The notes under the pieces: model-generated
The model's input: the letters and a program-made list of their open reading frames with translations, nothing else
Database searches by the model: none
What the model was told of the DNA's origin: nothing
Program-made: the position numbers and the translations under genes
IMG/VR virus record: IMGVR_UViG_3300018914_000001
Span: 1 to 64,000 of that record
From: a virus
Strand: one strand, 5' to 3'
Length of the DNA: 64,000 bases
Shown: in pieces, positions 7,440 through 61,566 of the stretch
Layout of the letters: the number at the start of each line of letters is the position of its first letter
Numbering within the stretch: position 1 is the first letter of the stretch

Positions 7440-9095
7440 TTAGCTCACCACTTCGTAATCGTCTAAGAACAACTGAGGCGTAATGATGGTTTTCCATTTA
7501 CCTTTCCACTTATTCAAATTTAAAGAGCCAACCGCTACTATACTCTCAGCGCAATCCTGAACAGAATCGAAAAACTCTTGATTGGTTCTGAATTTCATCA
7601 AAACAAATGGATTTTTCTCATCATTGCAATCAATACGAACAGTGGAGCCTCCACCCATTTGTCGCTTGCCTACTACCACAAGGTTGCGAACAAGAAATTT
7701 GGTTTCCCTCATGCCCTTACCTGTGACGAAGTTGAATTCCATCACCTTCTCAATGAGATCATAAGTGATGTCTTGAACATCAAGTTCCAGATCGTATTGA
7801 TTACCTTTATCTTCAAGATTAACTCCAACGCCAATATGTTTGACAAATTCTTCAAAATTCTTTTGCAAAACACCAACCCCACATGCTTGATCGTGACCAG
7901 CCGCAAACAGAGCTTGAGGCATCTGACTAATGTGACCTCTTATATTAAACCCATAACCTCTGGCACTGCCACGAAACAAAGGTTCGCCATCCTTTGTCTT
8001 AGCATGTGTGAGAACAACAGTGGGCTTACGGTACTTGTTAGCAATATCACCAGCTACCAAACCAGTAAATCCGCTGGTAATTGTATCATCGACAAGTACA
8101 ATAATATTGCGATGCTGAAGTTCGTGTTCGATCTTTTCAGAATATCGCTTTACAAAATCAGCTTGCATTAATTTACGCCTATCATTCAACTCTTTCGCTT
8201 CAGCCGCTAAGTTAGCACATAAGAAATAATCATCAGTTGATAGAAGTTTGAGTGCAAGCTCAATTTTGTCCATACGTGAAGCACCATTCAAAGTGGGCGT
8301 GATAGTAAACCCAATCGTTCCAGAATTAACATCAAAAAGATTAATTTTATTAGCCTGAAGAATAGCCTTCAAACCTTCATTCTTGATGTTTTTCAAGCCC
8401 TGATAAACGATATATCTGTTCTCAGGTTCGCGCATAGACATGACATCACCATGTAAGCCGACAGCTACAAGGTCTATAAACTCATCAGCAGTTCCAGAGC
8501 CAAGATAATCGTCCAACACCTGTACTGTCTTCCATACGATGCCAACACCAGATAATTCCTTGTTGGGATAATCACACATTTGATTGTTGACAATAAGAGC
8601 ATATGGATTTTCACATTCAGGGTGATGATGGTCAAGAATGATGATTTCAATACCTTTTTCTTTAAGCTCCCTACAAGCCTCAGCAGAAGATGTCGAAGAG
8701 TCTACAATGATAAGCAACTCAGTATCTTCTGGTACAACATCCATCGCTTGCTCAATCCCATGTCCTGCCGAACGTTGAACATGGAAGTAAGAAACATCTA
8801 CACCAAACTGCTTCAAGAAATTGTACATTACGACAGTTGCCGTGATACCATCAGCATCAATATCAGAAAAAATACGAATCTTCTTGCCAGTTCTCATAGC
8901 ATCAAGAATGATCTTGCAAGCCTGTTCGATATTATCGAGAAGACGAGGGTCATGAAGATCAGATTCACGCGGATTCAGAAACCTATTCAAATCATCAATT
9001 CCATTGATCTTCGCAAGTTTCTCTTGAACGTCATCGTATTCACTGTAAAGCTTTACAGGAGTCTTCTTTGTCCAGTTTTTCATTGAATAATCCAA
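7440..9095 (-). CDS. DHH-family RecJ-like single-strand exonuclease
   Basis: A 551-residue DHH phosphoesterase. Motif I is DIDADGITA near residue 78, motif II IVDSSTS near 128, the DHH signature is LDHHHPE near 152, and the DHHA1 nucleic-acid-binding signature AAGHDQACGVG lies near 412. RecJ proteins degrade single-stranded DNA 5' to 3' in repair and recombination. The C-terminal OB-like part is present, so it looks full length. It stands upstream of small unknown genes and near the primase and helicase, which suggests a role in DNA replication or recombination. Confidence 0.9.
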   Translation of the reverse strand: MDYSMKNWTKKTPVKLYSEYDDVQEKLAKINGIDDLNRFLNPRESDLHDPRLLDNIEQACKIILDAMRTGKKIRIFSDIDADGITATVVMYNFLKQFGVDVSYFHVQRSAGHGIEQAMDVVPEDTELLIIVDSSTSSAEACRELKEKGIEIIILDHHHPECENPYALIVNNQMCDYPNKELSGVGIVWKTVQVLDDYLGSGTADEFIDLVAVGLHGDVMSMREPENRYIVYQGLKNIKNEGLKAILQANKINLFDVNSGTIGFTITPTLNGASRMDKIELALKLLSTDDYFLCANLAAEAKELNDRRKLMQADFVKRYSEKIEHELQHRNIIVLVDDTITSGFTGLVAGDIANKYRKPTVVLTHAKTKDGEPLFRGSARGYGFNIRGHISQMPQALFAAGHDQACGVGVLQKNFEEFVKHIGVGVNLEDKGNQYDLELDVQDITYDLIEKVMEFNFVTGKGMRETKFLVRNLVVVGKRQMGGGSTVRIDCNDEKNPFVLMKFRTNQEFFDSVQDCAESIVAVGSLNLNKWKGKWKTIITPQLFLDDYEVVS

Positions 9096-9280
9096 CCCCC
9101 ATCTCTAATGATGCTTCGCACAAGCCATGCAGAGTAATTGGTAGAGCCAGTATGTTGCTTACATTCTACTTCATCGAAAAAATCCCACGATATTTTATAC
9201 CCATTTTCATTTTTTTCAATTTCATACATAACATAATCACAATCTTTGTGTTTAACAGTGAACTTATCTGGAAGGTTCAT
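9080..9280 (-). CDS. Hypothetical protein, 66 residues
   Basis: No recognised family. I start at the ATG at 9280 because GGAGGGTGGCGA lies directly upstream. It overlaps the RecJ-like gene start by 16 bases, so translation is likely coupled. Confidence 0.65.
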   Translation of the reverse strand: MNLPDKFTVKHKDCDYVMYEIEKNENGYKISWDFFDEVECKQHTGSTNYSAWLVRSIIRDGGWIIQ

Positions 9281-9669
9281 TCGCCACCCTCCCTTTCTTT
9301 GAAGGTATGACAACCACAATACTTACAACCGCAAGGACTCATATTTTCGTATGTGTCAAAGTGTCTATAGTAAGTATGACCGCACTCGCATATTCTGCTG
9401 TCTCCATATTCAGGGTTATAGCATCTGTTGCCAATCTCTTCAAGGTCGATAAGGTATGGTTGATCTTTTTGGCTCACTTCTTTTAAATCGAGAGCGTGAC
9501 CTTCAATTTTTACACCGTTAACAAATTCCAAATTGTAATATCCAGTGCCTCCATCCATTAGATCGCCGTCTGAATATTTCTCTATTTTCTTCAAAGTCGA
9601 AATAAAAGAACCCTGAACACAGCAGTCATCAAAAGATACTTTGTATACCTTCCCCACTTCCACCTTCAT
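9277..9669 (-). CDS. Hypothetical zinc-binding protein, 130 residues
   Basis: The C-terminal third is cysteine- and histidine-rich (CECGHTYYRHF, then CGCKYCGCHTF), a likely zinc site resembling those in phage DUF-type proteins. The N-terminal half looks like a small beta barrel (GKVYKVSFDD). It overlaps neighbours on both sides by four bases. Function unknown. Confidence 0.65.
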   Translation of the reverse strand: MKVEVGKVYKVSFDDCCVQGSFISTLKKIEKYSDGDLMDGGTGYYNLEFVNGVKIEGHALDLKEVSQKDQPYLIDLEEIGNRCYNPEYGDSRICECGHTYYRHFDTYENMSPCGCKYCGCHTFKEREGGE

Positions 9670-10304: not shown

Positions 10305-10569
10305 TCTCAGTCACCACTGCTTTATATCGTGAGGATGGATAGTGTTGAAAATTTGGATGATTTTTCTTAACCCACTCATATAATAATTCAGGAGTTTCAG
10401 ATTGAGACTCATGAAGACGACAACCATTATAAAGACAGGTCAAATAATAAACTATACCACCCATTCCGTCACCATGAACAGTGATGAGACAGGTGTCATG
10501 TTGAGTATTGCCTAAAGCTACAAAATCACCCCGCGTAAACTTTGGCTTCTTAGGAAGTTCACACTTCAT
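10297..10569 (-). CDS. Hypothetical protein, 90 residues
   Basis: No recognised family. It overlaps the zinc-finger gene and the primase gene by eight and four bases, so it belongs to the same translational unit. FTRGDFVALGNTQHDTCL suggests a small beta-barrel start. Confidence 0.6.
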   Translation of the reverse strand: MKCELPKKPKFTRGDFVALGNTQHDTCLITVHGDGMGGIVYYLTCLYNGCRLHESQSETPELLYEWVKKNHPNFQHYPSSRYKAVVTENE

Positions 10570-17353: not shown

Positions 17354-17560
17354 CTACCCCATCTCCTTAAATAAACAGTCCAGTAAGGCAATAGCCCTTG
17401 TTTGTTGTATATGCCCACCAAACTCCAAGGCAATCTTTGCCGCTTTTTCTGTAGACATTCTACTCCAATTATTCGCAATTATATCAATCGAATTACGAAT
17501 AACATCTTCACTTTCACCTGTTATAGCGCACAATTCCCGAATCAGCGAGTCGCGTCCCAT
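17354..17560 (-). CDS. Hypothetical protein, 68 residues
   Basis: Starts MGRDSLIRELCAITGESED after a strong ribosome binding site (AAAGGGGGG). Fully helical. It abuts the next gene without a gap. Unknown function. Confidence 0.6.
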   Translation of the reverse strand: MGRDSLIRELCAITGESEDVIRNSIDIIANNWSRMSTEKAAKIALEFGGHIQQTRAIALLDCLFKEMG

Positions 17561-17607
17561 TATGATCCCCCCTTTCGTTAAAACTGAGATTTTAGAGAAA
17601 AGACAAC

Positions 17608-17871
17608 TTATACTTTTAATCGAATCCACCAGCAATTACTGAGGCTGTGACCATCACCTTCAAAGATATGCTCAACTTTCTCGCTCTCAAGAAACTTTGA
17701 AAGCTCTTTTAAAGTCTTATATTCTACGCTTGAGGTTCCTCCATATAAAGCAATATGGATTAGCAATCTATGTTGTACCTCGCCATGCTTTTCGATGAAT
17801 TTTTGAGCCAGCTCAGGTTCAGAGAAGCGGTTGATTAGAGCAATTTGCTTCAAATACCTATCATTTCCCAT
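17608..17871 (-). CDS. Hypothetical protein, 87 residues
   Basis: No recognised family; helical N-terminal half, then a basic and aromatic C-terminus (NCWWIRLKV). Confidence 0.55.
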   Translation of the reverse strand: MGNDRYLKQIALINRFSEPELAQKFIEKHGEVQHRLLIHIALYGGTSSVEYKTLKELSKFLESEKVEHIFEGDGHSLSNCWWIRLKV

Positions 17872-17910
17872 CTTCAGAAAACCTCCTCTTTAAAAGTTTC
17901 GTTTTAACGA

Positions 17911-18159
17911 TTAGCAGTCTTCCGCTTCTCTTGGTTTCCTCACACTAAACACTTTGTATGGACAAGCTCCAGAAAGTGTGTAGTAACGTTCTTTGACAGT
18001 GATGGACTGAATTTCCTCAGCATCCACATCAATATGGATGTCGAAATTCGAATACTCATCAGCATATTTTCGAACTTCTTTGTCACAAATAGCCTCAATG
18101 GGCAAGCCTCGTTGATAGGCGTTGATGTTTTCTCTTGTCGTGTAAAGATGGACTCTCAC
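17911..18159 (-). CDS. Hypothetical protein, 82 residues
   Basis: No recognised family. It lies three bases after a lipoprotein gene and probably shares its transcript. Confidence 0.55.
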   Translation of the reverse strand: MRVHLYTTRENINAYQRGLPIEAICDKEVRKYADEYSNFDIHIDVDAEEIQSITVKERYYTLSGACPYKVFSVRKPREAEDC

Positions 18160-26070: not shown

Positions 26071-26147
26071 TGGTGGGCACATGGGGACTTGAACCCCAAA
26101 CCTTCAGATTATGAATCTGCCGCGCTAACCGATTGCGCCATATGCCC
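26071..26147 (-). tRNA. tRNA-Met (CAT)
   Basis: Full cloverleaf on the minus strand: acceptor GGGCATA/TGTGCCC, anticodon loop TTCATAA, T loop TTCAAGT, and encoded ACCA. It could equally be an elongator Met or an Ile-CAT that needs lysidine; the sequence alone does not separate them. Confidence 0.9.
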
Positions 26148-26154
26148 TTAAAAC

Positions 26155-26231
26155 TGGTGTGGCGAAGGAGATTCGAACTCCCACTGGACAAGGTTTAAGC
26201 TTGTTATCTCTGCCTATTGGATTACCGCCAC
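26155..26231 (-). tRNA. tRNA with TAA anticodon (Leu codon) on a class I body
   Basis: Acceptor GTGGCGG/TCGCCAC, D stem ATC/GAT, anticodon arm ACAAG-CTTAAAC-CTTGT, T loop TTCGAAT, encoded ACCA. The anticodon TAA reads UUA (Leu), but the variable loop is only five bases (CCAGT), whereas bacterial leucine tRNAs have a long variable arm. The charged amino acid is therefore uncertain. Confidence 0.8.
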
Positions 26232-26238
26232 AAAATTA

Positions 26239-26270
26239 GAAAAAATATTGGGGTGATTCAGGCTCACCCC
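26239..26270 (-). terminator. Terminator after terC
   Basis: GGGGTGA and TCACCCC form a stem with a seven-base loop, followed by AATATTTTTTC on the minus strand. Confidence 0.7.
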
Positions 26271-26278
26271 ATACCTTT

Positions 26279-32650: not shown

Positions 32651-32680
32651 AGGACGCGCATGAGAGAGTCGAACTCTCAA
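32651..32680 (-). pseudogene. tRNA 3'-half remnant
   Basis: A good T arm (GAGAG-TTCGACT-CTCTC) followed by ATGCGCG and TCC has no matching 5' half upstream. It may be a decayed tRNA or a trans-acting half. Confidence 0.4.
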
Positions 32681-32689
32681 CAGTGATAT

Positions 32690-32764
32690 TGGTGCGGGAG
32701 ACAGGACTCGAACCTGCATAGGCTAGCTCCCAAGGCTAGTGGTCAACCTTTGACCCACTCCCAC
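32690..32764 (-). tRNA. tRNA-Pro (TGG)
   Basis: Acceptor GTGGGAG/CTCCCGC, D arm GGTC/GACC, anticodon arm CTAGC-CTTGGGA-GCTAG, T arm GCAGG-TTCGAGT-CCTGT, encoded ACCA. Confidence 0.93.
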
Positions 32765-32771
32765 ATAAAAT

Positions 32772-32996
32772 CTGTGCGGGCTGTTCTTTGGCGACAACCC
32801 GCCTTTACCACATGTATACTTTAGCCAATGGTCATGACTTCCGCTATCGCATACAGTACAATCTAGTGCGTCAGATTGTTTACGGAAAGGTTTTTCAATC
32901 AACTAGTATCGCGGAAACCTTCGAACCTATGCCCTCATCCCCTTTGGCACGTGTGGCTCTCCCCGCAAAACCATGAGAGCTTTCCCATCTCACTAC
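32772..32996 (-). other. Structured non-coding stretch with a tRNA-like remnant
   Basis: No gene fits here. On the minus strand GCGGGTTGT/ACAGCCCGC forms a strong hairpin at 32772-32803; CAATCT/AGATTG forms another near 32860. At 32911-32966 GCGGGGA and TTTCCGC can pair as an acceptor around GGTTCGAAGG, the outline of a 56-base degenerate tRNA. Confidence 0.4.
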
Positions 32997-33119
32997 CTAA
33001 CAGTCGCCACCGCCACTGTCACAGCTTCCATTGTCAGAGCCGCCATCATCGCCGCCCCAATCACCTCCACCGCCACCAGTTGGGCGCGGTCTACGCTTTG
33101 TGTTGTTGAATCGTTCCAT
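32997..33119 (-). CDS. Small Gly/Asp-rich protein, 40 residues
   Basis: Starts MERFNNTKRRPRPTGGGGGD and continues as glycine, aspartate and serine repeats, ending CDSGGGDC. Ribosome binding site TTGGAGGCG. Probably disordered; the two cysteines near the end could bind metal. It lies between tRNA genes. Confidence 0.55.
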   Translation of the reverse strand: MERFNNTKRRPRPTGGGGGDWGGDDGGSDNGSCDSGGGDC

Positions 33120-33154
33120 TGTACAACGCCTCCAAATATTTGTTAGGTATTACT

Positions 33155-33229
33155 TGGCACACCCTGCTGGAGTCGAACCAACGTCTCAGGATTCGTAGTC
33201 CTGCGCTCTATCCATTGAGCTAAGGATGT
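33155..33229 (-). tRNA. tRNA-Arg (ACG)
   Basis: Acceptor ACATCCT/AGGGTGT, D arm GCTC/GAGC, anticodon arm CAGGA-CTACGAA-TCCTG, T arm GTTGG-TTCGACT-CCAGC, encoded GCCA. Confidence 0.93.
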
Positions 33230-33233
33230 ATAA

Positions 33234-33262
33234 GGTGGAAGCTCAAAGCTACGACTTCCACC
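33234..33262 (-). other. Hairpin between tRNA genes
   Basis: GGTGGAAG and CTTCCACC form an 8-bp stem with a 13-base loop. It may be a processing signal; no T tract follows. Confidence 0.4.
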
Positions 33263-33275
33263 AAAGCTTTGATGA

Positions 33276-33365
33276 TGAGGATTGAGAGGACTCGAACCTC
33301 CACGAAGCCGCTAAGCCTCACACCCGCCACATGGATGCGCGTCTGCCAATTTCGCCACATTCCTC
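33276..33365 (-). tRNA. Class II tRNA with GTG anticodon
   Basis: The body looks like a leucine tRNA: GGCGAAATTGGCAGACGCG in the D region and a long variable arm GAGGC/GCTTC. The anticodon arm is CATCC-ATGTGGC-GGGTG, giving GTG, a histidine anticodon. Acceptor GAGGAAT/AATCCTC has one mismatch; no CCA is encoded (TCA follows). If charged with leucine it would misread CAC codons; if not, it may be a decoy or pseudogene. Confidence 0.6.
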
Positions 33366-33370
33366 ATAGG

Positions 33371-33449
33371 CTCAGGGGGTTGGATTCGAACCAACGAACA
33401 GCGAGTCGCGACACTCACACTGGCATCTGCCGCTTAATGCTACCCCTGA
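33371..33449 (-). tRNA. tRNA with expanded anticodon arm, isotype unclear
   Basis: Acceptor TCAGGGG/CCCCTGA, D arm GCAT/ATGC, T arm GTTGG-TTCGAAT-CCAAC are good. The anticodon arm GTGAG/CTCGC closes an eight-base loop TGTCGCGA, and three extra bases precede it. CGC, TCG and GTC are all possible anticodons. No CCA encoded. Confidence 0.55.
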
Positions 33450-33475
33450 ATAGATAATAATTGCTGACTATTCAG
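33446..33475 (-). ncRNA. Partial element H overlapping a tRNA 5' end
   Basis: CTGAATAG-TCAGCAATTATTAT-CTATTCAG is an 8-bp hairpin whose loop carries CAGCAAT. Its 3' strand shares TCAG with the acceptor stem of the following tRNA, so hairpin and tRNA folding exclude each other. It lacks the TAGGCRC consensus. Confidence 0.4.
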
Positions 33476-33806
33476 CCACGCAGTAACCCATAGGTCAATC
33501 ATACCAAGCACCCATAGACTGTTAATCGTGGATTTAATCGAACTTTCGAAACCTCAGTCCTAAGCTTTGACTCGCCCTATCATTTGGGCATTCAAGAAGA
33601 ATTTTGAGTCTTCAGCTTTAACCACTTGAACTTTGAGATTTGAGCTTTCATCAGCATTTGTAGAATTTCATCAAATATGATGTAACCTCAATATCTTTTT
33701 CCTGAATAAAGGAAACCAAGTAGTTAGATACTATTTTAACGTAAATAGTGGACGAGTATTGAGTTTATGAGTGTTTCGAATAGCCAGCAATCAGTTTATG
33801 TAACCC
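33476..33806 (-). other. Gene-free stretch, 330 bases
   Basis: No convincing gene. Visible structures are GCCC-AAATGATA-GGGC near 33585 and ACTATTT/AAATAGT near 33727-33752. A decayed T-arm-like AGTTCGATT occurs near 33540. Several GAGCTTT/AACTTTG-type repeats are present. Confidence 0.4.
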
Positions 33807-33832
33807 TGACTAGTAAACTACCTAGTCAGGAA
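33807..33832 (-). terminator. Hairpin at the end of the 33822 gene
   Basis: CCTGACTAG and CTAGTCAGG form a 9-bp stem that includes the stop codon TAG. It has no T tract, so it may act on translation or stability. Confidence 0.45.
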
Positions 33833-34445
33833 TCACAATTTTGGTGATCGTGTTGCTTTCAGACAGAGTAAAATCAACTTCGTTCAAGAACTCAGCGATT
33901 TCCTTCTCCATCTTCTCAATCTTCTCACGAAGATTGTTGACAGAAACGAGCTTCGCTTGGTTCTGCTCCAAGAAGGGCTTGGACGTAGACTCGTATTGCT
34001 CTGTCGAGACTTTGGTGTCCTTGCCGAACGTGGACTTAATCAGTTCGTCAAGACGAATCTGAACTTGCTCATTCTCACGTTCAACTCTTGCAACAGCTTG
34101 GTTATACTCAGTGCGAAGCTTGCTCAGCAAGGTCTGCTCATAGACAATCGAAGACTTGCGCTCGATTGCTTCTGCAACAGACATCTCTTTGCCGCCAATC
34201 GTAACCATCGTTACAGCGTTAGACGCTACGATGGCAGACTTGATAGCCTTACGGCGTTCCATCAAGTCAAGGATAGATTGCAAGTGAGATTCTTGCTTCT
34301 TCACGAACTCATCGTTCGAGGTGTAGCCAGTAACCACTTTCTTGCCAGTGGTCATTACAGCGAACTTTCCGCTGTGAATCGTGCTGTTGATACGCGAGTC
34401 AAGCAATTTCAACTCTGCAAGACCGCGAGTTACAGAAATATCCAT
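33822..34445 (-). CDS. Coiled-coil protein, 207 residues
   Basis: No family recognised. It starts MDISVTRGLAELKLLDSRIN; heptad-rich helices span about residues 45-70, 95-130 and 155-190. It is encoded between tRNA-Ser and the gene-free stretch. It might be related to the ter-cluster coiled coil, but no specific motif supports that. Confidence 0.65.
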   Translation of the reverse strand: MDISVTRGLAELKLLDSRINSTIHSGKFAVMTTGKKVVTGYTSNDEFVKKQESHLQSILDLMERRKAIKSAIVASNAVTMVTIGGKEMSVAEAIERKSSIVYEQTLLSKLRTEYNQAVARVERENEQVQIRLDELIKSTFGKDTKVSTEQYESTSKPFLEQNQAKLVSVNNLREKIEKMEKEIAEFLNEVDFTLSESNTITKIVIPD

Positions 34446-34482
34446 GTGGATGATTCCACCTTTCGTTTGAATTTTGAATATA

Positions 34483-34573
34483 TGGCGGCGGGTGAGGGGA
34501 TCGAACCCCCGCTACAGTTCTCCTGTAGTCACCTGTTTTCAAGACAGGAGCATTACCACTCTGCCAACCCGCC
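34483..34573 (-). tRNA. tRNA-Ser (TGA)
   Basis: Class II tRNA: acceptor GGCGGGT/ACCCGCC, anticodon arm CCTGT-CTTGAAA-ACAGG, long variable arm CTACAG/CTGTAG, T loop TTCGATC, encoded GCCA. Confidence 0.93.
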
Positions 34574-34980
34574 ATATTGTTGTGAGCCAGCCAGCACGAT
34601 CCGTTACTAGCCAACCCACAACCGAATTGTGTTAGCCCCACCATCTACATCATCACTCGCTCTCGCGAATCTTTGCGTACTGCCACTTGTAGGAGCTACC
34701 TACTTCGCCGTACTGCTATGCCAAAGGGATGATGCCCACGCTAACACTCACGCACTGAGTAGGATTTTATTTGCAGTGTGTGACCTCGCCTGATTAGCCT
34801 TGCGACTCATCCCTACTGACTATCGCAATGTTACACTAACGCATTTTCAGGCTACAACTTGCATGAGATTTCGGACACTCCGACCACTCAATGTTGACGT
34901 GACATAACACAATCATCAAAGTCTCACTGAGAAGACTTGTATCATTAGGCAATTGCCTGTGTGATACTCACAAAATTTGC
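34574..34980 (-). other. Structured gene-free stretch, about 400 bases
   Basis: No supportable ORF. On the minus strand there are several hairpins: TCGC-GAGA-GCGA near 34660, TCGGA-GTG-TCCGA near 34870, AAGTCT/AGACTT near 34919-34939, and GTATCA/TGATAC enclosing AGGC-AATT-GCCT at about 34937-34967. GCAGTACG occurs twice near 34675 and 34710. It may be a long non-coding RNA or decayed tRNA DNA. Confidence 0.4.
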
Positions 34981-35035
34981 TAGGCGCATTCATTCCTCTA
35001 TGCACGAAGTTTGGTTTGATTGCTGTTAGCGCCTA
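34981..35035 (-). ncRNA. Y-RNA-like stem element I (Cys-type anticodon hairpin)
   Basis: TAGGCGC/GCGCCTA close a 55-base element, and TAACAGCAAT follows the 5' strand. The insert can form CTTC-GTGCATA-GAGG, a seven-base loop with U33 and anticodon GCA (Cys). It lies eight bases after the stop of the upstream protein gene. Confidence 0.65.
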
Positions 35036-35043
35036 TGACTGGG

Positions 35044-35343
35044 TTACTTACCCCAAATTCTTGTGATGATTTTATGACCTTTTTCGTCACGTTTGAACCA
35101 GTCAGGTTTGTGCATTAATGGCGGTTTCTGGCGAAAGTTCACCAGAAGATGAACGTCTGCTTTGTCGCCAGTGACTTTGAAGCCCTCAGACTTCAATTTT
35201 GCCACCCAATCAGCGGCATTGTCTTCCGCTTCAGAGCGTGTTGCACCAGCATCTTGCAGAATAACATCTTTTTCAGTCACTTCAATAGTGTCGCCAATCT
35301 TATTACGCTTGGTGACATGTGCAGTTGCGTAAAACTTATTCAT
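35044..35343 (-). CDS. Hypothetical protein, 99 residues
   Basis: Starts MNKFYATAHVTKRNKIGDTI; basic, mixed alpha/beta. The ATG at 35343 follows AAAGGAGTG. It is bracketed by elements J (in its leader) and I (just after its stop). Unknown function. Confidence 0.6.
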   Translation of the reverse strand: MNKFYATAHVTKRNKIGDTIEVTEKDVILQDAGATRSEAEDNAADWVAKLKSEGFKVTGDKADVHLLVNFRQKPPLMHKPDWFKRDEKGHKIITRIWGK

Positions 35344-35380
35344 ATAATACACTCCTTTAGGGGTGAATTTTCGAGATCAC

Positions 35381-35448
35381 AAGACGCTGTTTGCTTGGGT
35401 GCAAAATTAAAAGTTTTGTCCAATAGTTGTAGTTGCTGTAAGCGTCCT
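35381..35448 (-). ncRNA. Y-RNA-like stem element J (Lys-type anticodon hairpin)
   Basis: AGGACGC/GCGTCTT close a 68-base element, TTACAGCAA follows the 5' strand and GCAAACA precedes the 3' strand. The insert contains CAAAA-CTTTTAA-TTTTG, a perfect tRNA-Lys(TTT)-type anticodon arm. It ends 37 bases before a start codon. Confidence 0.7.
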
Positions 35449-35453
35449 TTGCT

Positions 35454-35541
35454 TGGCGGGTAGAACAGGATTCGAACCTGTGGGGCTGTGACACCCACCA
35501 GCTTTCCAAGCTGGCTCTTTAAACCACTCAGACATCTACCC
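35454..35541 (-). tRNA. tRNA-Ser (GGA)
   Basis: Class II: acceptor GGGTAGA/TCTACCC, anticodon arm CCAGC-TTGGAAA-GCTGG, long variable arm, T arm ACAGG-TTCGAAT-CCTGT, encoded GCCA. Confidence 0.93.
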
Positions 35542-35548
35542 ATTTCAA

Positions 35549-35641
35549 TGGCGGATGGAGAGGGATTCGAACCCTCGCGGCAACTCATCGTCACCCTAGC
35601 TGGTTAGCAACCAGCCCTCTTCACCACTTGAGTACCCATCC
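35549..35641 (-). tRNA. tRNA-Ser (GCT)
   Basis: Class II: acceptor GGATGGG/TCCATCC, anticodon arm GCTGG-TTGCTAA-CCAGC, long variable arm, T arm GAGGG-TTCGAAT-CCCTC, encoded GCCA. Confidence 0.93.
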
Positions 35642-35646
35642 ATCAC

Positions 35647-35702
35647 TAGGCACTATCACATGTTCGATTAAAAGTCGAGTGTGTAATTGCTGTTAGTGCC
35701 TA
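35647..35702 (-). ncRNA. Y-RNA-like stem element K (Lys-type anticodon hairpin)
   Basis: TAGGCACTA/TAGTGCCTA close a 56-base element with 9 bp, and ACAGCAATTA follows. The insert forms CACA/TGTG and TCGA-CTTTTAA-TCGA, a tRNA-Lys(TTT)-type loop. It lies seven bases after the HNH gene stop. Confidence 0.7.
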
Positions 35703-35709
35703 TATAGTT

Positions 35710-36162
35710 TTAGGTCACATGTGACCATAATTTGTATCTTCGTATTGCTGATATAGTTGAATGATGAACCCCATATTTTAATGCCAAGGAAGTATTCGTA
35801 CTTACCTTATCACTTCTGATTGCTCGAACGTCATCCTCTGTTAGTGTAGATTGAGGATTCTTGTTACCTTTCGTTGAACGATCACGTTCAACCATATCAT
35901 GCATATTTTGAACATGTGTTCCTAGTTCAAGATGTTCAGGATTAATGCACATTGGGTTGTCACATTTATGACGAACTAACATGTTATCAGGTATTTCACC
36001 AAAACATTGTTCGTAAATATGCCTGTGCATATAAGTTTTAATACGTATGCCTTTAATCATCTGTTGATGTAAGATATAGCCATCTTTCTTACGCGAGGCA
36101 TGAGATGTACAGATAAAGCAGTTATTCTCATCAATAACGAACTCTACTGGCTTTCTACTCAT
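35710..36162 (-). CDS. HNH endonuclease with C-terminal DNA-binding repeat
   Basis: 150 residues. The HNH core is MHRHIYEQCFGEIPDNM, VRHKCDNPMCINPEHLE (near 85) and HVQNMHDM. The C-terminus (LTEDDVRAIRSDK, LALKYGVHHSTISAI) is the helix-turn-helix repeat common in homing endonucleases. Such free-standing enzymes cut DNA and spread between phages. Start at 36162 behind AAAGGAGGTG. Confidence 0.9.
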   Translation of the reverse strand: MSRKPVEFVIDENNCFICTSHASRKKDGYILHQQMIKGIRIKTYMHRHIYEQCFGEIPDNMLVRHKCDNPMCINPEHLELGTHVQNMHDMVERDRSTKGNKNPQSTLTEDDVRAIRSDKVSTNTSLALKYGVHHSTISAIRRYKLWSHVT

Positions 36163-36187
36163 CTCATTCACCTCCTTTGAAAATCTG

Positions 36188-36264
36188 TGGAGGCGCATGG
36201 GGGAATCGAACCCTCCGAATCGTAGATTGAAAGTCTACTGTGTTATCCACTTCACCAATGCGCC
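36188..36264 (-). tRNA. tRNA-Glu (TTC)
   Basis: Acceptor GGCGCAT/ATGCGCC, D arm GTG/CAC, anticodon arm GTAGA-CTTTCAA-TCTAC, T arm with one mismatch (GAGGG/CCCCC), discriminator T and encoded CCA. Confidence 0.9.
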
Positions 36265-36272
36265 ATACTTCG

Positions 36273-36346
36273 TGGAGACAGGAATGGGATTCGAACCCAC
36301 TAACCTTAGAGTTGCAATCCAAGTCCAGTCCAAACTGGCTCCTGCC
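36273..36346 (-). tRNA. tRNA-Cys (GCA)
   Basis: Acceptor GGCAGGA/TCCTGTC, anticodon arm TTGGA-TTGCAAC-TCTAA, T arm GTGGG-TTCGAAT-CCCAT, discriminator T and CCA. The D arm region GCCAGTTTGGACTGG is compact. Confidence 0.88.
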
Positions 36347-55996: not shown

Positions 55997-56953
55997 TTAT
56001 TTAATTAAGCCAGTAGGACGTTGAATATTTTTACCAGCCTTTTGACCAGCGCCATATGCGGCGGCATTGCCATACCGCCTCTGACGTTGAGAAGCCTTCA
56101 TTTTATGACTAGTGAAGCCTTTAGAAAGCTCCTCCCAGTATTGCTTGACTGGCTCAACGATAACCAAAGCGGTAGACTGAGCAACTTCGTCAGTAACTTC
56201 CACTTCTTCATCGTTATCCCACAGTTCGTCATCATCTTCCAGAAACTGGTCAGGGGTGAAATTCCGCAAGTCTCTGATGAGGATGTACTTGGGCTTTCCT
56301 TCTTCGTCGCTGGTCAGGATTTTCTTCGTGCCCTCTGGCAGAGCAAGGAGTTTATTCTTAGCAAGGAGTTTAATATCCTCTTTAAGTTGCTCCTTGAACT
56401 TCTGCTCAATGCCATTAACAAAACCAGAGAGCCAGTCATGACGCAACTTTTCTTGATCTGACTTCTTTTTAGCGATAGGCACAAGATTTTTGCGAAGTTT
56501 CCAGACATAACCCTCTGACATGTGCATGGCTACCTGCTGGGCAAAATCAAACAGTTCAGCCGCGAATTGGGCATCGCTTTCCAGCCCAACAAAGACAGCC
56601 CTATAACGTTCTTCTTTTGCCCAATCAATATAGTAGTAGCAACGGAAGGCTTTTGCGAGTACCCTTGCCAAGTTAGACTCGAACCAAGTCCATTCATAGT
56701 GATTTATAGTGCGCCACTCGACAACCTTTTGTTCTTTCTTTTCTTCTATTACTTTTTTAGCTTTTTCAATTTCTGCCTCAGTGATGTTATGTTTCAACAT
56801 CAGCTTATAGGCGAGCTTCATTGCATTTTGAGCTTCACCTTTTTGGCGGTCATCGTTACCTTTCAGGATAGAATCCTTCAAGGCGTGAAGCTTCTGAATC
56901 TGAAGAATAACATCATTGCGGTCTTTGCTTTGTTTGCTTTCGTTTTGTTCCAT
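55997..56953 (-). CDS. DUF2786-family protein
   Basis: 318 residues. KLHALKDSILKGNDDRQKGEAQ, then KLAYKLMLKHNITEAEI (residues about 22-62) is the DUF2786 helical pair; the middle (about 85-190) resembles the domain that usually follows it. The C-terminal part is acidic, then basic. Function unknown; found in phages and plasmids. A parS-like sequence overlaps its start. Confidence 0.75.
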   Translation of the reverse strand: MEQNESKQSKDRNDVILQIQKLHALKDSILKGNDDRQKGEAQNAMKLAYKLMLKHNITEAEIEKAKKVIEEKKEQKVVEWRTINHYEWTWFESNLARVLAKAFRCYYYIDWAKEERYRAVFVGLESDAQFAAELFDFAQQVAMHMSEGYVWKLRKNLVPIAKKKSDQEKLRHDWLSGFVNGIEQKFKEQLKEDIKLLAKNKLLALPEGTKKILTSDEEGKPKYILIRDLRNFTPDQFLEDDDELWDNDEEVEVTDEVAQSTALVIVEPVKQYWEELSKGFTSHKMKASQRQRRYGNAAAYGAGQKAGKNIQRPTGLIK

Positions 56954-56961
56954 GTGAAACG
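56946..56961. promoter_or_regulatory. parS-like site, imperfect
   Basis: TGTTCCATGTGAAACG differs from the Bacillus parS form TGTTCCACGTGAAACA at two positions and covers the start codon of the DUF2786 gene. Confidence 0.4.
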
Positions 56962-56990
56962 CTCTCCTTTCGTATTACCTCTTGCTTCTT

Positions 56991-57020
56991 ATTATAGTCG
57001 ATACGTTGCCATTTATGCAA
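56991..57020 (-). promoter_or_regulatory. Promoter for the DUF2786 gene
   Basis: TTGCAT, 18 bases, TATAAT on the minus strand. Confidence 0.75.
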
Positions 57021-57030
57021 CCCCTTTTGC

Positions 57031-57069
57031 AAAAAAAATAAAAAGGAATGAGCGAATAGCCCATTCCTT
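57031..57069 (-). terminator. Rho-independent terminator
   Basis: AAGGAATG and CATTCCTT form an 8-bp stem followed by TTTATTTTTTTT on the minus strand, seven bases after the stop of the 57076 gene. Confidence 0.92.
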
Positions 57070-57075
57070 AAAAAG

Positions 57076-57684
57076 TTAACCTTGCACTTCACCTGGTACA
57101 CGTTTCAGCTTGCTTGTTTCAATTCCCAGCACACCAGAATTGTCGAAGTTGACAGAGGCGAAGGACTTATCTTCGCTCAGAGCGACGATGTTTCCGTATT
57201 GGGTAGTAAACCCTTCGAAAACAACTCTGTCACCATCTTGCGGAATCCATTCATCCTCCTCCACAGATGTTTCCGCCACATCCCAGCCTTTGGGCATATA
57301 ATGCTCCATTGTCGTCTGAGCATTCGCATGAGCTTTTTTAGTAGTGGCTTCTTCACGTTTCATCAGCATGAGCAAGGGAGCCAACATGAAGGCTTCCAGA
57401 ATTTGGATGTCCTCTGCATACTCATCAGAGGAGGAAAGTGCAATGGTCTTCAGGTTTTCCCATGCTCTGAAGACCTCCAGAACGTTTTGACTTGCGGGCA
57501 TGATCTCCTCTACTTTGACGCGCAACGCCCCGCCTCCCGCCATAGCGACATAGAGGGCATTTTCATCAATGCCGCCAGCCTCAGTTTCAGGCAGAATTTC
57601 CATAATTTTCGGCTCTTCTAAGCCTGCCTCTTTCTCGCATAGCAGGATGCCCTTTTCAATCATTGCCAGCAGAGTTCTAATCAT
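57076..57684 (-). CDS. Hypothetical protein, 202 residues
   Basis: N-terminal helical region, then a C-terminal beta barrel (WIPQDGDRVVFEGF, GNIVALSEDKSFASVNFD, KLKRVPGE) of the KOW/SH3-like kind. Start at 57684 behind GAGGAGG. Terminator follows. Function unknown. Confidence 0.65.
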   Translation of the reverse strand: MIRTLLAMIEKGILLCEKEAGLEEPKIMEILPETEAGGIDENALYVAMAGGGALRVKVEEIMPASQNVLEVFRAWENLKTIALSSSDEYAEDIQILEAFMLAPLLMLMKREEATTKKAHANAQTTMEHYMPKGWDVAETSVEEDEWIPQDGDRVVFEGFTTQYGNIVALSEDKSFASVNFDNSGVLGIETSKLKRVPGEVQG

Positions 57685-57744
57685 TATTAATAACCTCCTC
57701 ATTTTTTTCATTTTTATTCGACTACACTATATTATATACGACAA

Positions 57745-57770
57745 AGAGCAGGTTAATTCCTGCTCTTTCG
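57745..57770 (-). other. Hairpin upstream of 57076-57684
   Basis: AAAGAGCAGG and CCTGCTCTTT pair over 10 bp. On the plus strand a T-rich tract follows, so it may work as a terminator for plus-strand transcription; on the minus strand TATAAT follows closely and may be a -10 element. Confidence 0.5.
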
Positions 57771-57793
57771 CAAATTTTTTTATTTATTTTTCA

Positions 57794-57895
57794 TTAATGC
57801 ACATACATGACTTGATGGTAAATACGCTCAGCAACCACTGCCAAAATAACAACAGCCGCTACAGTAGTCCAAAAGATGTCTTGTTTTTTAGTCAT
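57794..57895 (-). CDS. Small single-pass membrane protein, 33 residues
   Basis: MTKKQDIFWTTVAAVVILAV plus a short cationic tail, behind GGGGAGGTG. One of a set of tiny membrane proteins; unknown function. Confidence 0.65.
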   Translation of the reverse strand: MTKKQDIFWTTVAAVVILAVVAERIYHQVMYVH

Positions 57896-57996
57896 TTTGT
57901 TCACCTCCCCTTGGTAGTCAGACTTATTTGCAATGTCTTTTTTACGATTTCCCGCATATACATTAAAACAAGAGCCGCGATATGCTGGGCAAGGGT

Positions 57997-58221
57997 TTAG
58001 CAGGGGTAGCCAGCTTCATCGAATCGTATCTCCTTTCTATTTGATTTAGCGCCAGACATTTGGGATTGGATGATACGCGCCGCATCTTTCCTATGTATGT
58101 CTGCCTTTACTTCAATAAAGTCAGAATGATAACGTTTCTCACTAATGCGAATCCCTGCTTGTTGTAGGATGAAAACTTGCTCACTAGTGAGAAAGAGAGT
58201 GGTATGTTTCACGTGGAACAA
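57997..58221 (-). CDS. Hypothetical protein with embedded parS site
   Basis: 74 residues if read from the TTG at 58221 (FHVKHTTLFLTS…). The parS sequence encodes FHVKH. The ribosome binding site AAGGAG is only two bases from that TTG, so a GTG at the V of HVK is a better start. No family recognised. Confidence 0.6.
   Translation of the reverse strand: MFHVKHTTLFLTSEQVFILQQAGIRISEKRYHSDFIEVKADIHRKDAARIIQSQMSGAKSNRKEIRFDEAGYPC
58205..58220. promoter_or_regulatory. parS site (exact Bacillus form)
   Basis: Minus strand TGTTCCACGTGAAACA is an exact copy of a chromosomal parS variant bound by Spo0J/ParB in Bacillus. It lies between the ribosome binding site and start of 57997-58221. Confidence 0.75.
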
Positions 58222-58227
58222 CGCTCC

Positions 58228-58302
58228 TTAGTCGAGTTTCATCAATAAGCGGTCGCTAATTTCGGACAAGACAAGCACACCAATGAAAATTAACGCTTCC
58301 AT
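58228..58302 (-). CDS. 24-residue membrane peptide
   Basis: MEALIFIGVLVLSEISDRLL behind AAAGGAAGTG; its start overlaps the stop of the previous small ORF. Confidence 0.5.
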   Translation of the reverse strand: MEALIFIGVLVLSEISDRLLMKLD

Positions 58303-58400
58303 TATTTCACTTCCTTTCTCTTTGTAAGAACAATCATAGCAGGAACACCAAACCCTATCGCTAACAGGCAAATTATAACAAACCAGTTGGAAGCAGTCAA
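58302..58400 (-). CDS. 32-residue membrane peptide (TTG start)
   Basis: Reads MTASNWFVIICLLAIGFGVP then a basic end, behind TTAGGAGG. Translationally coupled to the 24-residue peptide. Unknown function. Confidence 0.5.
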   Translation of the reverse strand: MTASNWFVIICLLAIGFGVPAMIVLTKRKEVK

Positions 58401-58453
58401 GGCGAATTTTCCTCCTAATTAACTCTTCTCTAAAAGTCTGCTTTTATTGAATT

Positions 58454-58828
58454 TCATTTTTTAAAAATGCGTTTCTTTTTTTGGAGCTTCCCTCCAAAGC
58501 TAATTTTAACTTTCATTTCCGTTGAACTTTTCCATTTAACTTTAATCCTCCTCCTTTTGACTTCTTTCTCTCGAATAACAATTTCCAGTCCAAGCTCATC
58601 CAAAACTTTTAACAGTGTACCAATGGTATAATTTTTACCACTAGTAATTCGCGCAATTTGAGTATAACTAAGATTTGGAATTTTTGCGGCTAAGGTTCTA
58701 AGGGACAGCCCGCTATCATCCATAGCTTCTTTTATGGCTTCAGAGATTTGGAGTTTAGGCTTTTCGATTGCATAATACTCGTTAGGAATCGCACCAAACT
58801 CTTTCGGAAATTCTTCTTGTTTTTTCAT
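58454..58828 (-). CDS. XRE/HigA-like helix-turn-helix protein
   Basis: 124 residues. LQISEAIKEAMDDSGLSLRT, LAAKIPNLSYTQIARITSGK (about 27-66) is an XRE-type helix-turn-helix like the antitoxin HigA; YTIGTLLKVLDELGLEI completes the fold. The tail is very basic. No toxin gene is adjacent. Probably a transcription regulator. Confidence 0.78.
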   Translation of the reverse strand: MKKQEEFPKEFGAIPNEYYAIEKPKLQISEAIKEAMDDSGLSLRTLAAKIPNLSYTQIARITSGKNYTIGTLLKVLDELGLEIVIREKEVKRRRIKVKWKSSTEMKVKISFGGKLQKKKRIFKK

Positions 58829-58849
58829 TTTACTTACCTCTTTTCTTGT

Positions 58850-59053
58850 TTAAAAATTAACTAGAACGCCTTCAGAATAAAGAATGTCAAACACTTCACC
58901 ATAAACTTCTTTAACTCCTTGATATTCTTCAGGAGCCAGTCCTACCAACAGGTCAGCCAGTGCCATTGCTTCTTGCCTAGAGGGTTGCCCCTCCAGTAAC
59001 ATATAAGTATAAGCTAGCCCAAACAAAGTTAAAGCACGTGCGTATTTAGACAT
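58850..59053 (-). CDS. Hypothetical protein, 67 residues
   Basis: No recognised family; helical. It lies two bases after the zinc-knuckle gene. Confidence 0.55.
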   Translation of the reverse strand: MSKYARALTLFGLAYTYMLLEGQPSRQEAMALADLLVGLAPEEYQGVKEVYGEVFDILYSEGVLVNF

Positions 59054-59055
59054 GC

Positions 59056-59307
59056 TTACTCCTCCCCATATTTTAATTTCATTATTTCTTCTAAAGCCTG
59101 ATTAACTCGCACATTTACTTCATACGGTTGGACTTTTGCCTTCTCCTTCTTTGACTCAATATGAAGCGTTCTTTTCTTGCAGTTTACACACCAATTATGT
59201 TTTCTATGTCCTTCGCTTCTTGTTCGCGATTTTCTTCTATGAATCCTAATCTCTTTGCCGCATTTAGTGCAAGTAATATAAGAGTAAGCCAAACGCTTTT
59301 GATGCAT
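59056..59307 (-). CDS. Zinc-knuckle protein, 83 residues
   Basis: CTKCGKEIRIHRRK near 13 and WCVNCKKRTLH near 39 form a zinc ribbon with a basic loop between. Possible nucleic-acid binding. Confidence 0.6.
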   Translation of the reverse strand: MHQKRLAYSYITCTKCGKEIRIHRRKSRTRSEGHRKHNWCVNCKKRTLHIESKKEKAKVQPYEVNVRVNQALEEIMKLKYGEE

Positions 59308-59354
59308 TTAAAACCTCTCCCCTATCTTGTCATGGTTTTCCTCCCAAAGTTTTT

Positions 59355-59398
59355 AATTAGCTCCCCTGCCTTTTTCAAGACAAGGGAGCTAATTTGTT
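59355..59398 (-). terminator. Large hairpin after the sigma-factor gene
   Basis: AATTAGCTCCC and GGGAGCTAATT form an 11-bp stem with an inner GTC/GGC part. It follows the stop of the sigma gene by about ten bases. No clear T tract. Confidence 0.5.
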
Positions 59399-59409
59399 AT
59401 CGTTTATTA

Positions 59410-59889
59410 CTATTCTTCATTCTGCGTGATCCTCCCAATTTCGATTTTCAGGTGGAATTTGCCACCGCGCTTAACGATCTCAACAGCTTCTGACAACAGG
59501 ACAAGCAGTGTATCTCCATTTACCCCATGCAAGGAAGCAGACAGCCCCACGTTCGCGCAGGGAGAGGCTTCCACATTTGCATGTGCGACAACAGGCAGTG
59601 TTTCCAGAACAGGCGGTACTTCCAAAACAGATGCCGCCGCCGCTTGCTGAAGCCCTGTTGCAATTTCGTTCTGCCCTTGTTTAGATTCTAATTGCTTAGC
59701 GATATACGCCTCAACAGCGTCTTTAATTGAAGCGTCAGGCTTGATGTCTTCCGACTTGGAATGAAACTTATACGTTGCGACAGTATTTTGTCCGACACCC
59801 AAAATGATTGCGATGTCTTTTGCCTTCAATTGCGGATAGTTTTCATTGATAAACTTTACCTGAGAAATTTTGGGGTTTGCTTTTGTCAT
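59410..59889 (-). CDS. Possible internal translation product of the sigma gene
   Basis: AAGGAGATGGAAAAC followed by ATG lies in frame within the sigma gene and would yield a 159-residue protein holding only the helix-turn-helix and the C-terminal domain. Internal initiation is inferred only from the ribosome binding site. Confidence 0.4.
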   Translation of the reverse strand: MTKANPKISQVKFINENYPQLKAKDIAIILGVGQNTVATYKFHSKSEDIKPDASIKDAVEAYIAKQLESKQGQNEIATGLQQAAAASVLEVPPVLETLPVVAHANVEASPCANVGLSASLHGVNGDTLLVLLSEAVEIVKRGGKFHLKIEIGRITQNEE

Positions 59890-60639
59890 GTTTTCCATCT
59901 CCTTAATGATTGGTTTGTTGATTTTGGGTGCGTCTTTTATTGTTTCAATCTTAGGTGTTTCAATCTTAGGTGTTGGAGGGATAATTTTTTTAGCGATAGG
60001 CTTATTAACTAACTTAGGATTAAGATTAACAATCTTAGGCTTGTTAACAACTCCTTCGCCTTTTTCAATATACCGCTTGATACGATTCCTAAGTCTTTTG
60101 CAAATTCTACTAATATAAGATTGAGAAATACCTAAAGCATTTCCAATCTCTACTTGTGTTTTTCCCTCCTCAAATTTCATAATTATAATTAAGCGATCTC
60201 TTTCAGGGAGTGAAAAAACAAAATCTTTCACACTAGTTGAGATCATGCTTAATTCAACTTCATCTTCAATATTTTCATCTGAAGGGATTATCTCCCTAAG
60301 CGTAATCCCATTTCCATTACCGTCTGTAATTAGAATCCTGTCTAATGAATCAATGTAAGCATGTTTCTTATTCCTTCTAAGAAACATTAAAATTTCATTT
60401 ATCATACAACGAGATGAGTATGTAGCAAACTTGATGTCTTTGCTGGGGTCAAAGGTGTGATAAGCTTTTAGGAATCCAATTTGAGCATATCCTGCTAAAT
60501 CGTCGATTTCTACATTGGTGTTGGCGAATTTTTTAGCAATATAGAAGGAGAATTTTTTGTTGGATTCGAAAAACTCTCTTTCCGCCTCTTTATCGCCAGC
60601 TTTAGCTTTAACTATCAACTCTTCGTTTTTAAGTTGCAT
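59410..60639 (-). CDS. Sigma-70 family factor with C-terminal extension
   Basis: 409 residues. Region 2 (about 25-95: DDLAGYAQIGFLKAYHTFDP, FATYSSRCMINEIL) and region 4 (about 155-205: LPERDRLIIIMKFEEGKTQV, IGNALGISQSYISRI) are complete and resemble sporulation sigma factors. After residue 205 comes a proline/lysine repeat (KIETPKIET), then a second domain with HTH-like LKAKDIAIILGVGQNTVATY near 275. A strong ribosome binding site (AAGGAG) before the internal ATG at 59889 could make this second domain separately. It likely redirects transcription to phage promoters. Confidence 0.88.
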   Translation of the reverse strand: MQLKNEELIVKAKAGDKEAEREFFESNKKFSFYIAKKFANTNVEIDDLAGYAQIGFLKAYHTFDPSKDIKFATYSSRCMINEILMFLRRNKKHAYIDSLDRILITDGNGNGITLREIIPSDENIEDEVELSMISTSVKDFVFSLPERDRLIIIMKFEEGKTQVEIGNALGISQSYISRICKRLRNRIKRYIEKGEGVVNKPKIVNLNPKLVNKPIAKKIIPPTPKIETPKIETIKDAPKINKPIIKEMENMTKANPKISQVKFINENYPQLKAKDIAIILGVGQNTVATYKFHSKSEDIKPDASIKDAVEAYIAKQLESKQGQNEIATGLQQAAAASVLEVPPVLETLPVVAHANVEASPCANVGLSASLHGVNGDTLLVLLSEAVEIVKRGGKFHLKIEIGRITQNEE

Positions 60640-60666
60640 ATGTCACCCCGCTACTACTCACTTGGC

Positions 60667-60987
60667 TTACAGCCTTTTGAGTCTCGCTTTCATAAATTTT
60701 TGAACCTCTTCTGCGCAACACTTGCGGATATGGGGATAAAAATTTTCAGGGGGTATATCCTGAATACCTTGAACACCGCGAACAAGTCCCACTGTAGCAA
60801 CACTTACGTAATCTTCCAATGGGATGATATTGTGCACTGCATAAAATCTTGCCGCACATTTGACTACTGTACGCAAACTTCGTTCGATCAGCACGTCACG
60901 CGCCGCTTCATTGGGAAGTTTTCTTTGCAAGAAAGCAATTTCTTTGACATTCAATTCTACTGGCAGATTATCAACATTTACAACCAT
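60667..60987 (-). CDS. Orphan sigma region 2-like protein
   Basis: 106 residues. ERSLRTVVKCAARFYAV near 35 and PLEDYVSVATVGLVRGVQGI near 57 match sigma region 2.1-2.2, which binds RNA polymerase; region 4 is missing. It could compete with or modify sigma binding, or be the first half of a split sigma factor. It lies just upstream of the complete sigma gene. Confidence 0.65.
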   Translation of the reverse strand: MVVNVDNLPVELNVKEIAFLQRKLPNEAARDVLIERSLRTVVKCAARFYAVHNIIPLEDYVSVATVGLVRGVQGIQDIPPENFYPHIRKCCAEEVQKFMKARLKRL

Positions 60988-61005
60988 TATCTTTCTCCCC
61001 TTTTT

Positions 61006-61566
61006 TTAAATTTTTCCTTCTCCTTTACATCTAAAGCATATACCGTTTTCAATATGGCTATAGGCTGAAATGTTGCCATCGCCATTACATCTAGGACAAG
61101 TCCGAAGTTGTCTTTTTGTCGCTCTTCGCCATGCCTCAGTACAACTAGGTTTCTTGCAATAGATAAAAAGCTCCTCATCAATGTTGATAGACTCATTGTA
61201 AACATCTATTTCGCATCCACATCGCCAGCAAATTTTGATAAGAGATTCTTTTGGTAGTTCTGGCGGTAGCTCTTCTTTGAAGATTCGTTTTCGTGCTTGA
61301 GCCTCAAACTTATCGTAACCATCTTTAATCTTTTTAAGTTCGCCAATACGTGTAAACGAGAAGTATTCAAAGTTTCCATTCTTATGAATGCGAACCTTAA
61401 TTTCTCCACGCTCAGGAAGCATTGCGTCTGCAAAGACTTCCCTGCCACCTAGAATAAGGGTGACAGGGAACCAATGCTCTTTGTATTGAGTCAGCAACTC
61501 CCCCACTTGACTTTGAATCTGCTCAGTTAAGGTCTGCTGTTTCACGTGGAACATACCTCCCTTCAT
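61006..61566 (-). CDS. DnaJ-type zinc-finger protein with embedded parS site
   Basis: 186 residues if read from the first ATG at 61566. ICWRCGCEIDVY and YCKKPSCTEAW, then CPRCNGDGNIS and CFRCKGEGKI, give two zinc sites of the DnaJ kind at the C-terminus. The N-terminal segment FHVKQ is encoded by a parS sequence. The best start by spacing is the GTG at the V (GGGAGG ten bases before). Function unknown. Confidence 0.65.
   Translation of the reverse strand: MKGGMFHVKQQTLTEQIQSQVGELLTQYKEHWFPVTLILGGREVFADAMLPERGEIKVRIHKNGNFEYFSFTRIGELKKIKDGYDKFEAQARKRIFKEELPPELPKESLIKICWRCGCEIDVYNESINIDEELFIYCKKPSCTEAWRRATKRQLRTCPRCNGDGNISAYSHIENGICFRCKGEGKI
61538..61553. promoter_or_regulatory. parS site (exact Bacillus form)
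   Basis: Minus strand TGTTCCACGTGAAACA, identical to the site at 58205-58220 and to a Bacillus chromosomal parS variant. It lies between ribosome binding site and GTG start. Confidence 0.75.

Follow-up and report, generated by a model that had tools for sequence, protein, structure and literature searches.

Known ParB-parS systems

The clamp protein ParB depends on CTP; it is loaded onto DNA at parS sites and then slides away from them. In phage phi29, which is not known to have a ParB of its own and whose annotation names none, four exact copies of TGTTTCACGTGGAACA are present at 10445, 15903, 17243, and 18760. Host Spo0J is reported to mediate the entrapment of the phi29 genome in the spore, in a statement of PMC9437464 that cites Meijer et al. 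2005. In Bacillus subtilis, TGTTCCACGTGAAACA is the parS site inside parB (PMC4333373) and has served as a consensus parS sequence (PMC7614844); in the same species, parS placed outside the chromosome changes the distribution of ParB (PMC7614844). Another suggestion in the literature is that segregation genes may help phages to become entrapped in spores (PMC10294663).

The DNA described here belongs to a virus record of 158,514 bases (IMGVR_UViG_3300018914_000001), of which the window, the whole stretch first analysed, covers bases 1-64000. The exact sites of the window are of the same variant as those of phi29, and both phages have multiple exact chromosomal-type parS sites and no recognised ParB of the phage. 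However, phi29 is a 19-kb podophage with sites over half its genome, whereas the sites of the 158-kb record are clustered in the early region; Spo0J-dependent entrapment has been reported for phi29 in a sporulating host, while for the phage of this record Spo0J dependence and a sporulating host are predictions. The phi29 precedent, with its four exact sites and reported Spo0J entrapment, was missed by the initial annotation of the window. The bacterial chromosomal ParABS system (Spo0J/parS, Bacillus) has an identical parS, with several sites clustered over tens of kb, but the record is a virus and gave no parA or parB match. P1-type ParABS systems of phages and plasmids also have centromere-like repeats; however, they have their own ParA and ParB and their own parS, and neither protein was found in the phage of this record.

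A cluster of parS sites in the early-gene region

The initial annotation had placed exact copies at 58205 and 61538 and an imperfect one at 56946, and the same positions were found in this study, the third (present as TGTTCCATGTGAAACG) with two mismatches. The full-genome scan for parS and parAB that it had called for added three sites outside the window and no parAB match (Table 1). The initial annotation thus understated the cluster, of which three of the six members fall beyond the window, in a repeated hairpin family. In total, the record contains four exact parS sites, one with a single mismatch, and one degenerate site, and no other parS was found in the whole record at up to two mismatches.

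Table 1. Positions of the parS sites and of the genes discussed, in the numbering of the record
Feature	Position	Strand	Remarks
DUF7168/DUF2786-like gene	55997-56953	-	PF23771 E 3.4e-18; low end of cluster
Degenerate parS-like site CGTTTCACATGGAACA, 2 mismatches	56946-56961	-	Centred on ATG of DUF7168/DUF2786-like gene
74-aa ORF, start overlaps parS 58205	57997-58221	-	No family match above cut-off
Exact parS TGTTCCACGTGAAACA	58205-58220	-	Over start of ORF 57997-58221
ORF with C-terminal CxxCxGxG zinc-ribbon-like motif, start overlaps parS 61538	61006-61566	-	phrog_9961 E 1.4e-6
Exact parS TGTTCCACGTGAAACA	61538-61553	-	Over start of ORF 61006-61566
Exact parS	69455-69470		Beyond window; tip of intergenic hairpin
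parS, one mismatch	70303-70318		Beyond window; tip of intergenic hairpin
Exact parS	74477-74492		Beyond window; tip of intergenic hairpin
TubZ/FtsZ-like GTPase	89364-90491		PF00091 E 7.8e-16

On the plus strand, the sites at 58205 and 61538 read TGTTTCACGTGGAACA, and the motif had been assigned to a chromosomal parS variant of Bacillus, which is supported by the sequences in PMC4333373 and PMC7614844. The sites of the record agree over 16 bp with the TGTTNCACGTGAAACA-type chromosomal parS consensus; in the exact sites all specified positions are kept and variation is confined to the Y/R position 5/12. The copy at 56946 is too degenerate to be relied on as parS.

Exact TGTTYCACGTGRAACA was observed four times in the record against 0.0002-0.0003 expected from Markov models of order 1-4, and five sites within one mismatch were seen against about 0.01 expected in the whole record under an order-2 model. 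In the window alone, matches at up to three mismatches numbered six, compared with a mean of 0.64 in dinucleotide shuffles, none of which (0/100) reached six. The six sites of the record span 17.5 kb of the early-gene region, an arrangement with a random chance of about 1e-4. Overall, the parS cluster is real, under selection, and ParB-less. As for other host-type motifs, no Noc-binding sites were found in this phage, two DnaA boxes are present, and the candidate Spo0A boxes in the 158 kb (one exact TTTGTCGAAWAA near 84409 and five at up to one mismatch), which in the phi29 mode would be expected at early promoters, could not be told apart from those of relatives.

Start codons and leader hairpins

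The three window sites lie over translation starts, as previously noted: the palindrome centre supplies an in-frame RTG about 10-11 nt after GGAG, namely ATG at 56946 (product MEQNES..), TTG or GTG at 58205, and ATG or GTG at 61538. The sites at 69455, 70303, and 74477 are off start codons. The orthologues of the DUF7168 gene in Alicyclobacillus phage KKP_3916 and in the distant relative G017, described below, have normal starts without the motif, which shows that translation does not depend on the overlap. A role of the motif at start codons was rejected on these grounds, and the overlap is incidental or lineage-specific. A search of viral contigs for near kin of the parS-adjacent ORFs gave none.

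The three sites beyond the window belong to a different context. About 30 intergenic hairpins between 66.5 and 82.5 kb of the record form one covarying family. The outer helix (TAACTGTT/AGCAGTTA) is conserved; it is followed by a mismatch within the stem, a 2x2 internal loop, and an inner helix that is 9-12 bp long and may have any sequence. Pairing is kept in 98.7% of cells and both sides have changed in 10 of 14 pairs, in an alignment that was fitted to the structure and is consequently biased toward pairing. The family had no match in Rfam or in relatives. The parS sites are the apical stems of three members, just upstream of ribosome-binding sites, and these three form palindromes of 26-28 bp that are perfect or nearly so, while the remaining members have unrelated stems and loops of 3-6 nt. 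Since neither exact window site folds into such a hairpin (z -0.88 and +0.08) and only three hairpins carry parS, the common factor is the 16-mer DNA site rather than the hairpin or the start codon, and neither context accounts for it.

Partition genes in the record

The claim that the window encodes no ParB or ParA holds for the whole record, in which no match was obtained to ParB_N (PF02195), AAA_31 (PF13614), or CbiA/ParA (PF01656) with profile searches that gave the expected matches in control genomes. The ParB and ParA of a self-contained type I ParABS system are thus not found among the proteins of the record.

A possible phage-encoded ParB was considered in two ORFs of 143 aa, at 68979-69410 and 72162-72593, which are paralogues of each other (pairwise E 4e-6). 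The former is directly downstream of the 69455 site, and a GYNRLKAIIKYG-like stretch in both recalls ParB box II. They had no match in Pfam, PHROGs, PDB, or phage tblastn searches, and the AlphaFold model, with a mean pLDDT of 41, was useless; identification as ParB is not supportable.

The phage may have some partition genes after all. Upstream of the TubZ-like GTPase lies a protein of 100 aa that matches winged-helix domains weakly, and together they may form a candidate TubRZ-like module at 89065-90491, of the type III (TubZRC) kind of partition system. This candidate module is also present in G017 (47% identity), and the GTPase has a counterpart in phage G.

Distribution of parS among related phages

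Among named phages, those with the most similar terminases are Geobacillus virus E3 (70%) and Alicyclobacillus phage KKP_3916 (61%), and phages that infect Enterococcus, Bacillus, Brevibacillus, and Lactococcus come next. No parS within one mismatch was found in E3, KKP_3916, Sundance, FADO, PJN02, 2S-4, Enterococcus H1, or Lactococcus AM9, nor in SPbeta, phi3T, LC76P1, AR1086-1, phi6255, Phass-1, Slash, or phage G; Perkons has one exact site. Since closer relatives are without it, parS has a patchy distribution, and its absence from closer members of the same family implies that the function is dispensable or replaced. A search of genome contigs with prophage and host-like genes (terminase, TerC-like protein) for the host gave no relative.

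G017, a 169-kb contig picked up solely for its parS sites and compared by genes only afterwards, proved to be a distant collinear relative with 63 ORFs in common and a 45% identical terminase. Of its 13 sites, 12 are exact and the other has a single mismatch, and they span about 19 kb when the contig ends are taken as joined; PF02195 (ParB) had no match. The cluster is syntenic: the genes for the UvrD helicase and the DUF7168 protein flank three of the sites, and the remainder lie beyond UvrD, as in the phage of this record, and the DUF7168 orthologue (17457-18152) marks one cluster end there too. That the cluster has been kept while the terminase diverged to 45% identity argues for selection. 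Some of the G017 sites are hairpin tips, and an exact ATTTCCCGGGAAAT, the Noc-binding-site consensus, lies near its cluster at 166149.

Phage vB_BcoS-136, isolated on Bacillus cohnii, has four exact sites at 29256-30261, all of them intergenic, and no ParB match, and its terminase is 83% identical to those of site-free FADO and PJN02. It resembles the phage of this record in belonging to the same broad terminase family, in its four exact sites, and in its lack of a ParB match, but the sites are at another locus, fall within 1 kb, and are accompanied by no TubZ match. The annotation of the vB_BcoS-136 record makes no remark on parS.

Distribution of parS in other viral contigs

In a blind scan of IMG/VR, two or more sites were found in 10 of the first 80 parS loci listed, whereas a control palindrome, TGTTYCAGCTGRAACA, gave no such locus among its first 80 (Fisher p 0.0014). 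The raw count of parS in viral contigs was rejected as proof of enrichment; the control palindrome also had at least 80 loci and only multiplicity differed. Single parS matches in viral contigs are mostly uninformative. Among 30 parS-bearing records checked, many of which are fragments, one had a weak, sub-cut-off ParB_N match.

An 18-kb contig (G007/L276) with six parS sites within one mismatch belongs to a phage like phi29, as seen from its Phi29_MCP match (E 4e-90) and its type-B viral DNA polymerase. A G+C-rich contig (G010) has three sites inside one ORF; therefore, phage parS is not confined to Firmicute-like genomes.

A proposed role and its alternatives

It is probable that the sites constitute a ParB-less centromere that would nucleate host ParB (Spo0J) on the phage genome, with capture or partition as the likeliest gain. 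The components of this proposal differ in strength. Binding of host ParB to the phage sites, predicted from their sequence, is very likely, and SMC and ParA would probably be recruited as well. Entrapment or partition as the main selected benefit is held more tentatively, at somewhat less than an even chance. ParB-CTP clamps would load at the five to six phage sites and slide across roughly 17 kb of the early region, where they would recruit SMC and contact ParA, and the phage DNA would be treated like the host origin region. The genome could then be captured or partitioned into daughter cells when lysis is delayed, and in sporulating hosts it could enter the forespore, as in phi29-type spore entrapment. 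The host may be a spore former, as suggested only by relatives infecting Geobacillus, Alicyclobacillus, and Bacillus. Since parS outside the chromosome is able to draw ParB to itself in B. subtilis, the economical reading is that host ParB is recruited. By analogy, phi29 offers the strongest lead for what the phage gains, and the cluster, which shares the sequence features of that mode, would work most like the parS copies of phi29. Against this reading stand the closer relatives without parS (E3, KKP_3916, FADO, PJN02, SPbeta, and phi3T), the TubRZ-like module, which could itself perform partition, and the three parS sites in one ORF of the G+C-rich contig.

Replicating phage DNA would also present hundreds of extra parS sites, which could draw ParB and SMC off the host origin and upset segregation or sporulation to the advantage of the phage. 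Several sites per genome would suit such a decoy, and in B. subtilis extra parS on a plasmid or in an array shifts ParB off oriC, with poorer separation of the origins as a result (PMC7614844). However, titration needs neither clustering in one region nor conservation of that clustering between phages with 45% identical terminases, and so few sites would count only after replication; a decoy is therefore unlikely. The location of the sites over starts or in 5' leaders of the early region would instead be compatible with gene regulation, in which loading and sliding of ParB, or roadblocks at start codons and leaders, would keep early genes silent, perhaps during sporulation or for as long as host ParB has not been sequestered. 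Yet orthologues do not keep the start-codon overlap, the sites of G017 and phi29 are found within genes, in the gaps between them, or at their 3' ends, and many neighbouring genes share the leader but lack parS, which makes regulation a slightly poorer prospect than the decoy.

Two further alternatives dispense with ParB. The palindrome could be the operator of another regulator, phage-encoded or a host CACGTG-binding protein, and the phage does have HTH proteins, one of which (58454-58828) adjoins a site. This is improbable, as the exact sites keep every specified parS position, varying only at Y/R 5/12, and the same 16-mer is clustered in phages without an evident shared regulator, including phi29. 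Least credible is that the palindromes are a by-product of RNA hairpins or of chance, i.e. mere stems of leader hairpins or terminators. Three sites are indeed inner stems in the family of roughly 30 covarying copies, but the stems of the other members are unrelated, with loops of 3-6 nt, the exact window sites have the same 16-mer outside any hairpin, and chance would give 3e-4 exact sites. The hairpin or chance reading is strongly disfavoured by these counts.

Significance of ParB-less parS clusters

Beyond this phage, there is somewhat less than an even chance that parS centromeres without a ParB recur as a trait across phages. Phages of separate lineages (large siphovirus-type, phi29-like, and others) would each have retained host-type parS clusters on their own, so that host ParB and SMC load onto their genomes; in the present lineage the sites coincide with two other signals, RNA leader hairpins and start codons, and the Noc-binding-site-like sequence near the G017 cluster suggests imitation of the host origin region. 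The use of host Spo0J has already been reported for phi29, and the main interest is the breadth of parS clusters across phages. In this respect, vB_BcoS-136, with its four exact sites, and the site-free FADO and PJN02 represent comparable phages with and without sites. If the recruitment of host ParB is true, these clusters would show, in nature, ParB and SMC being loaded onto DNA other than the chromosome, and phage use of host ParB would extend from one small phage to large phages. It would suggest a general route to segregation, positioning, or carriage into spores for viruses without partition genes.

parS sites in other viral genomes

The parS sites also form a cluster in G017, the record of a distant collinear relative of the phage, and one exact palindrome resembling a Noc-binding site lies near that cluster, at 166149. 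The intergenic regions there also hold repeats of the motif TGTTGCGG. In an 18-kb contig of a phi29-like phage (L276), six near-exact parS sites are arranged as three close pairs in the gaps separating larger ORFs. A single 392-aa ORF (8144-9322) of the G+C-rich viral contig L279 contains three exact parS copies.

Genes and RNA elements of the record

Features of the studied record and of G017 (window and record share one numbering)
Feature	Position	Strand
parS cluster of G017 (169-kb record), 13 sites	168792 to 18154, spanning record ends	
tRNA array, 15 predicted genes	window 26071-36346	
tRNA array, 14 predicted genes	record 103.5-105.3 kb	
Sigma-70-like factor; adjoining short protein (between parS sites)	window 59410-60639; 60667-60987	
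Intergenic hairpin family, ~30 copies	record 66.5-82.5 kb (L006:2501-18460)	minus
Pair of paralogous orphan proteins, each 143 aa	record 68979-69410; 72162-72593	minus
TubZ/FtsZ-like GTPase, small weakly winged-helix protein upstream	record 89065-90491 (L007:5065-6491)	plus

For the short protein beside the sigma-70-like factor, the match is weak and confined to sigma region 2. Two genes with a zinc motif of the CxxCxGxG type, one in the window (61006-61566) and one in the Bacillus cohnii phage vB_BcoS-136 (30310-31656), have a parS site at their start or a short way upstream of it, which may be a coincidence. The first of the 143-aa orphans is directly downstream of parS 69455; both paralogues carry a stretch like ParB box II and are without family support.

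Many small genes of the record have one member of the hairpin family 5' of the RBS. Its outer helix and internal loops are conserved, the inner helix remains paired though its sequence varies freely, and covariation within the family is strong. It had no match in Rfam and was found in none of the relatives searched; it may act in RNA processing or as a leader element.

The GTPase and winged-helix pair is common to the record and G017, and phage G encodes a similar GTPase. This pair is a candidate TubRZ partition module.
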